Source: a virus | Length of the DNA: 23,586 bases | Strand: one strand, 5' to 3' | Virus record (IMG/VR): IMGVR_UViG_3300034375_000162 | Location: 1-23,586 of that record | In this document: positions 20,604 through 21,954 of the stretch, in pieces | How positions within the stretch are numbered: the stretch's first letter is position 1 | How the letters are laid out: each line of letters opens with the position of its first letter | The notes under the pieces: model-generated | Told to the model about the DNA's origin: nothing | The model's input: the letters and a program-made list of their open reading frames with translations, nothing else | Database searches by the model: none | Program-made: the position numbers and the translations under genes

Positions 20604-21404
20604 TTATTTGACTCGACCCTCCGCATAAGCTGCCATAATTTCGTCTGACAAAGCTTGATAACGATCAGGGTCATTTTTCATTAGTTTAATAATGTCGGCC
20701 CTACGATATACCTTCTTACGACTACCTTCAGCACTGCCTCGTGCATTGCCTGTATTAGCTGCCCTGAGTGTTTGCTTACGTGCTTGTTTTTCAACTTTAG
20801 CAGTTTGCTGTGCAACTGTTTTTCGTTCTTTCCAGAGTGAAAAAAGCTCATCAGCAGCGTCAGCATCGTACTGTTGGTCAGCGGCTACAAACAATTGAGT
20901 CCTAATTTTTGATGCTTTAATCCATTCAGCAAACTTAGGATCGCTAAGAATTTGTTGCATATCTGGATGTTTAGCTTGAAGCGTAGCCAAAGATGACTGT
21001 TTTTTGTACTGTTCTGTGTACTGTTGTGCTTCTTTAATTTTAGGATGATTTTCAATTGCACGATTAACAGCGGCTTGAGGATCTGTAAAATAGTCTATAT
21101 CGTTTTCAGGCTCAACGTGTTGCTGTTGAGGTGCTGGTGGTTGTGTTTGACTACTAATGTAATCATCTACAACCTTACGAAGCTCTCCTACTTCAGAGGA
21201 CTGACGACCTAAAAGCTTTTCAGCCTCTTGGTGCATCTGTACAACTTCTTCTAGAGACTTACCTTGGTACTTCTCAGGAACTGTAGGTTTTTCTGTTTGA
21301 GGTTGCTCAACTTCTGTTTCTTGTTGAATCTCATCAACTTCGTTTTCAATGGTGTCCACATTTTCCTCTTCAGGTTGTGGATCAAGCATTGTTGCTCTTG
21401 ACAT
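20604..21404 (-). CDS. Capsid assembly scaffolding protein
   Basis: This 266-residue protein has the composition expected of a phage scaffold: a very acidic N-terminus (Glu/Asp-rich, about residues 8-45), a Pro/Gln-rich stretch (about 87-97), a helical middle (AVNRAIENHPKIKEAQQYTEQYKKQ) and a basic C-terminal helical end (RRADIIKLMKNDPDRYQALS, near 234-253) that in this class contacts the coat protein. It begins MSRATMLDP with GGAG about 9 bases before ATG 21404 and ends 14 bases before the capsid start. Gene order portal-scaffold-capsid supports the call; the sequence alone is low complexity. It should be absent from mature particles. Confidence 0.88.
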   Translation of the reverse strand: MSRATMLDPQPEEENVDTIENEVDEIQQETEVEQPQTEKPTVPEKYQGKSLEEVVQMHQEAEKLLGRQSSEVGELRKVVDDYISSQTQPPAPQQQHVEPENDIDYFTDPQAAVNRAIENHPKIKEAQQYTEQYKKQSSLATLQAKHPDMQQILSDPKFAEWIKASKIRTQLFVAADQQYDADAADELFSLWKERKTVAQQTAKVEKQARKQTLRAANTGNARGSAEGSRKKVYRRADIIKLMKNDPDRYQALSDEIMAAYAEGRVK

Positions 21405-21425
21405 AATTAAACTCCGTGATTATAA

Positions 21426-21647
21426 TCATTGTGGAGACTTCTTTTTACCTGCTTTTTCGTGTTCTCGTACCCACTTCATATGCTGACCGGGAAAGTCCCC
21501 AGTAGAGCCATCAAGGTGAAAAGACGGGGCAGATACCATTTTAGTAGCGTTAGCACCACAACCGCACCTACTGGTTGTAATACCACTTTCTACCATTTCT
21601 TCAAAGACATGTCCGTTAGTACAACGGAAGTCATAAATTTTAAACAT
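21426..21647 (-). CDS. Small zinc-ribbon protein (FmdB-like N-terminus)
   Basis: This 73-residue protein starts MFKIYDFRCTNGHVFEE and has potential zinc ligands Cys9, His13, Cys28 and Cys30 (C-x3-H...C-x-C), a reduced version of the FmdB-type zinc ribbon, which usually has two CxxC knuckles. The second half holds MVSAPSFHLDGSTGDFPGQH and a basic tail (KAGKKKSPQ). The APSFHLDG-x-x-GDFPG segment is familiar to me from small phage proteins encoded beside capsid genes. The start overlaps the end of the 84-residue gene by 8 bases; no strong ribosome binding site is seen, so translational coupling is likely. Function is unknown; binding of nucleic acid or an assembly role is possible. Confidence 0.8.
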   Translation of the reverse strand: MFKIYDFRCTNGHVFEEMVESGITTSRCGCGANATKMVSAPSFHLDGSTGDFPGQHMKWVREHEKAGKKKSPQ

Positions 21648-21894: not shown

Positions 21895-21925
21895 AGTTTC
21901 CTCTAATGTTGTTAACTATAGTTTT

Positions 21926-21954
21926 ATTATAGCATACTTTTTAACGGTTGTCAA
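21926..21954 (-). promoter_or_regulatory. Consensus sigma-70 promoter with extended -10
   Basis: On the - strand, TTGACA (21954-21949) and TATAAT (21931-21926) both match consensus perfectly and are separated by 17 bases, the optimal spacing. A TG one base before the -10 box makes it an extended -10. Transcription should begin near 21919. The -35 box contains the TGA stop codon of the upstream basic-protein gene. A 10-base palindrome, AACTATAGTT (21914-21923), covers the start point and could be an operator. The promoter reads into the 84-aa, zinc-ribbon, scaffold and capsid genes. Confidence 0.92.

Follow-up and report, generated by a model that had tools for sequence, protein, structure and literature searches.

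Organization of the capsid gene region

The window equals one virus record of 23,586 bases; it is a fragment from which the early region is missing, and its genes for scaffold and capsid lie on the minus strand downstream of the portal gene. Between portal and these genes, small ORFs for very basic proteins are clustered (22829-22198, minus), showing weak, partial matches to DUF5872 and DUF5754. The last gene before the junction studied here encodes an 88-aa basic protein (22217-21951, minus; DUF5872-like, E 2e-6), and is followed by an 84-aa acidic ORF (21894-21640, minus), for which no Pfam or PHROGs match was found. Next come a 73-aa ORF (21647-21426, minus) that weakly resembles a zinc ribbon (Zn_ribbon_8, E 4e-5, below cut-off), a 266-aa putative scaffold (21404-20604, minus), which belongs to a PHROG of unknown function and owes its proposed role to its location ahead of the capsid gene, and the major capsid protein (20589-19609, minus; phrog_267, E 4e-54; Phage_capsid_2).

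Directly after the capsid stop, a G+C-rich hairpin runs into T-rich sequence (19601-19570, minus); this matches the pattern of an intrinsic terminator and is best described as terminator-like. Of 81 sequences, 80 have an equivalent hairpin 3' of the capsid gene; its stems differ in sequence while the pairing is kept (e.g. GGGGGTC/GGCCCC and GGCCCCC/GGGGGGC). A separate short hairpin lies upstream of the scaffold start (21436-21412, minus), where CTCC pairs with the GGAG Shine-Dalgarno sequence of the scaffold gene. Since this pairing is kept in 59 of 62 distinct relatives, as CTCC/GGAG, CTCC/GGGG or TTCC/GGAA, it suggests that the scaffold may be under translational control.

A consensus sigma-70-type promoter precedes the capsid genes

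The junction between the gene for the basic protein and the 84-aa ORF holds, on the minus strand, a TTGACA -35 box (21954-21949) and a TATAAT -10 box (21931-21926), separated by the 17-base spacer ACCGTTAAAAAGTATGC, with the TG of an extended -10 (21934-21933) one base upstream of the -10 hexamer. All of this stands as described in the initial annotation, including its observation that the -35 box is fused with the stop codon of the upstream gene: the TGA (21953-21951) of the 88-aa ORF falls within TTGACA, and apart from this codon the promoter is intergenic. The site scores 12 of 12 consensus bases, with a spacer inside the 16-18 base range of the sigma-70 extended -10 class, and a perfect match was found in none of 100 dinucleotide shuffles of the whole window. 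Judged from these letters, it is most likely a host sigma-70-type promoter of the extended -10 class. Spacing alone would place the transcription start at 21919 (minus).

Together, the promoter at one end and the terminator-like hairpin at the other frame scaffold and capsid as one unit.

Conservation across relatives

Through the capsid protein 80 relatives were collected, and 66 sequences, the window included, hold the junction before the 84-aa ORF. Both boxes are perfect in 19 of these 66, have one mismatch in 11 and two mismatches in a further 11. At most one mismatch is thus seen in 30 of 66 junction sequences, as against 0.3% of mononucleotide shuffles of the same stretches; for two mismatches the shuffles give 3%. 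The 17-base spacer and the extended -10 TG are found in each of these 30 sequences, the TG having been no condition of the search.

In a per-position comparison of 31 distinct promoter-bearing sequences, in which the TG was required and is hence constant by construction, the TTGA of the -35 box and the bases at -12, -11, -9 and -7 are invariant, and the final -35 base is A or T. The boxes are more conserved than most of the spacer, where variation peaks at positions -26 to -23 and -13 and a conserved A-rich segment occupies -22 to -18.

These patterns bear on the idea that the match arose by chance and has no function. The window does offer one example of such a chance match: a second perfect TTGACA-N17-TATAAT (21398-21426, plus), not listed in the initial annotation, that is poorly conserved, since no more than 10 of 74 sequences retain it with one mismatch or none. 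As it also has no TG and runs antisense to the scaffold start, we rejected it as a promoter, and its letters are best explained by the scaffold start codon (ATGTCAA) together with an AT-rich hairpin loop. The minus-strand match, however, overlaps coding sequence only at the stop codon and persists although the spacer letters change, and a similar promoter precedes the terminase small subunit gene TerS in the same genomes (see below); chance is therefore an exceedingly improbable explanation for it. Because many relatives keep the promoter in the same spot, it is very likely that host polymerase makes the capsid mRNA. The initial annotation's proposal that host RNA polymerase does so directly is in this respect supported by a conserved sigma-70-type promoter, from which use of that polymerase would follow.

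Conservation of the boxes is not uniform. They are kept in place in many relatives and lost in some in which the flanking genes are kept, the pattern that the initial annotation had named as counting against its reading; these latter relatives, however, have a different early module. Some relatives with capsids 85-91% identical have no promoter but keep the terminator, and the promoter, in a point against the reading favored below, is therefore not essential to this capsid operon. Eight loci (L008, L010, L011, L019, L024, L026, L028 and L029) have at the capsid-promoter position a mutually similar, different sequence, CTGACWTTTTTTARAAANCGTGSTAMAAGGCA, which retains the TG and the 17-base spacing but not the consensus -10, and might represent a promoter that is weakened or under different control.

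The start-site palindrome

A 10-base palindrome, AACTATAGTT (21914-21923, minus), covers the predicted start, as the initial annotation had noted in suggesting that a repressor or timing factor may be needed. If so, the promoter would be real but held down until late infection by a repressor bound at the start site. The centring of AACTATAGTT on the predicted +1 is in keeping with this idea, as is the length of the start-site palindromes across the promoter-bearing relatives (mean 7.87 versus 6.56 in shuffles, with none of 300 shuffle sets as high), although this test overstates the enrichment, as the sequences are related. Against it, the palindrome is perfect in the close kin of the window and varies elsewhere, so that a mild enrichment in length is not matched by conservation of sequence; in several to many promoter-bearing relatives the start-site palindrome is no longer than expected by chance; the TerS promoter mostly has no palindrome of the same sequence; and no transcription regulator was recognized among eight small early ORFs of the near-complete relative G001. 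Thus, an operator role for the palindrome is weakly supported and control by such a repressor is unlikely; nothing that we found requires one.

Host-type promoters and the phage RNA polymerase question

Since the window has no early region of its own, its lack of an RNA polymerase gene is inferred from relatives, principally G001. This record of 35,178 bases is probably close to complete, as the tail-fibre pieces at its two ends share sequence. It encodes DNA polymerase A, endonuclease I, an SSB-like protein, a class II ribonucleotide reductase (RNR), terminase and portal, and, in our reading, a primase-helicase-like protein. No T7-type RNA polymerase is present in its ORF inventory, and no early ORF is long enough to encode one, the longest on the early side being the 623-aa RNR. 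A search of nine records with Pfam RNA_pol models gave no match, but the controls were silent too, making it uninformative; the argument for absence is therefore drawn from the G001 inventory. These viruses thus appear to form a marine phage group without an RNA polymerase of its own.

The promoter had initially been regarded as surprising by comparison with T7-like phages, in which late genes would be read from phage polymerase promoters or by read-through. With no T7-type RNA polymerase in a near-complete relative, host-type promoters are to be expected and the surprise is unwarranted. The initial annotation had proposed looking for further copies of the promoter, and relatives do have a second one of the same class: in G001 (23590) and its kin, TTGACT-N17-TATACT with a TG precedes TerS, with which the rightward late block begins. 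Another candidate, near the RNR genes (G001 15043, minus; G005 26567, plus), was rejected: its letters fall within the endonuclease I gene and are explained by a conserved peptide there, DKxxILWYxIxTL.

The host polymerase could also be directed by a phage-encoded or alternative sigma factor preferring sigma-70-like boxes, and the conservation of the A-rich spacer stretch, together with the many early ORFs (most of them) without an assigned function, leaves some room for this. However, a full sigma-70 consensus with an extended -10 does not call for any special factor, and G001 showed no sigma-like ORF, which makes such a factor very unlikely.

Late promoters co-vary with the early module

Both late sites, i.e. 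those before the capsid unit and before TerS, are readable in 26 loci; the promoters are both present in 13 of these and both absent from the other 13. All 13 relatives with the capsid copy therefore have a TerS promoter of the same class, with the capsid copy nearer to consensus (mean mismatches about 0.85 versus 1.5). On the capsid tree, and on quick trees of TerL, portal and scaffold, the two promoter states are interleaved, indicating that the state changed several times.

NinG, NinB and Erf genes were assigned in the early modules of relatives, and promoter state and early module co-vary clearly in this sample. Records that combine a polymerase A or RNR gene with a readable capsid junction are promoter-bearing (ten, counting the window), except for L046, which carries NinG plus a distant RNR; the six records with a NinG-type gene (L011, L019, L024, L033, L046 and L079) all have no promoter. 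The L024 record (G002, 58,241 bases) contains a pair of distinct NinG genes (96% and 86% to the query) alongside two late-gene sets, and may therefore be a chimeric or redundant assembly. As promoter-less relatives, where this can be checked, carry the NinG-type early module despite similar capsids, gain and loss of the late promoters seem to follow the early module, be it by recombination carrying both sites or by selection after a module swap.

In all readable relatives of this set without the capsid promoter, an element AGGATAGGGRGGG, often in the form TATAGGATAGGG, precedes TerS on the plus strand (L011 3171, L019 2610, L024 3186, L028 3280, L029 25, L032 230, L034 714, L038 2357, L039 477, L079 1209); several also have a short hairpin and a T/A-rich segment downstream of it. 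The element may be a site for packaging, or it may belong to a different late-transcription system. A more far-reaching possibility, which we raise tentatively and hold to be rather doubtful, is that the late-transcription system as a whole is exchanged with the early module: genomes with polymerase A and RNR would use consensus host promoters before TerS and the capsid unit, whereas those with NinG/NinB (lambda nin-like) have neither and would rely on some other late system, for which antitermination or an activator working at the conserved TATAGGATAGGG before TerS is a candidate. This would entail several switches, each at two sites about 5.6 kb apart.

Mechanistic interpretation and comparison with known systems

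The reading that we favor, with a probability of roughly 0.85, is that a host sigma-70 extended -10 promoter drives a dedicated capsid transcription unit, closed by an intrinsic terminator, that adds to transcription from the TerS promoter. Host RNA polymerase would start at about 21919 and transcribe in turn the 84-aa ORF, the zinc-ribbon ORF, the scaffold and the major capsid protein up to the terminator, which would probably be partial. As this output would come on top of transcription begun before TerS, scaffold and capsid mRNA would exceed other late mRNAs, giving strong expression of the unit.

A precedent is presented by T7, where promoters phi9 and phi10 serve scaffold gene 9 and capsid gene 10, followed by the terminator T-phi, and are read by the phage's own single-subunit RNA polymerase. 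In the layout described here, scaffold and capsid likewise have a strong promoter in front of them, and a terminator stands immediately behind the capsid gene; in contrast to T7, the boxes are of host sigma-70 type and no single-subunit RNA polymerase was found in the near-complete relative. Marine podoviruses with predicted sigma-70 promoters but no RNA polymerase have been described. One of them, Polarivirus skadi, reported to encode no RNA polymerase and to have four predicted sigma-70 promoters (PMC10504331), is comparable in both the apparent absence of the enzyme and the type of promoter, but its promoters are reported to lie close to genes for DNA replication and manipulation, with no terminators detected (PMC10504331), whereas the promoter described here precedes the capsid genes and a terminator follows them.

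The window capsid is less than 32% identical to database phages among the matches listed, and no close database isolate was found with the capsid, terminase or a 215-aa structural protein. The nearest database match to the DNA polymerase of G001 is that of Pelagibacter phage HTVC103P (49.6% identity), whose genome is about 54 kb, versus about 35-37 kb for the near-complete relatives here. Genome contigs with ten of the loci fall in unrelated metagenome bins and give no host call.

While a host-type promoter before capsid genes is an arrangement of a known kind, its gain and loss in step with a module is the more interesting part. The arrangement shows how uncultured marine phages seemingly without an RNA polymerase can secure capsid expression, by a consensus host promoter before the scaffold and capsid genes and a terminator after them. 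A promoter class tied to the early module while the capsid stays similar amounts to a natural experiment on the rewiring of late transcription at module swaps.
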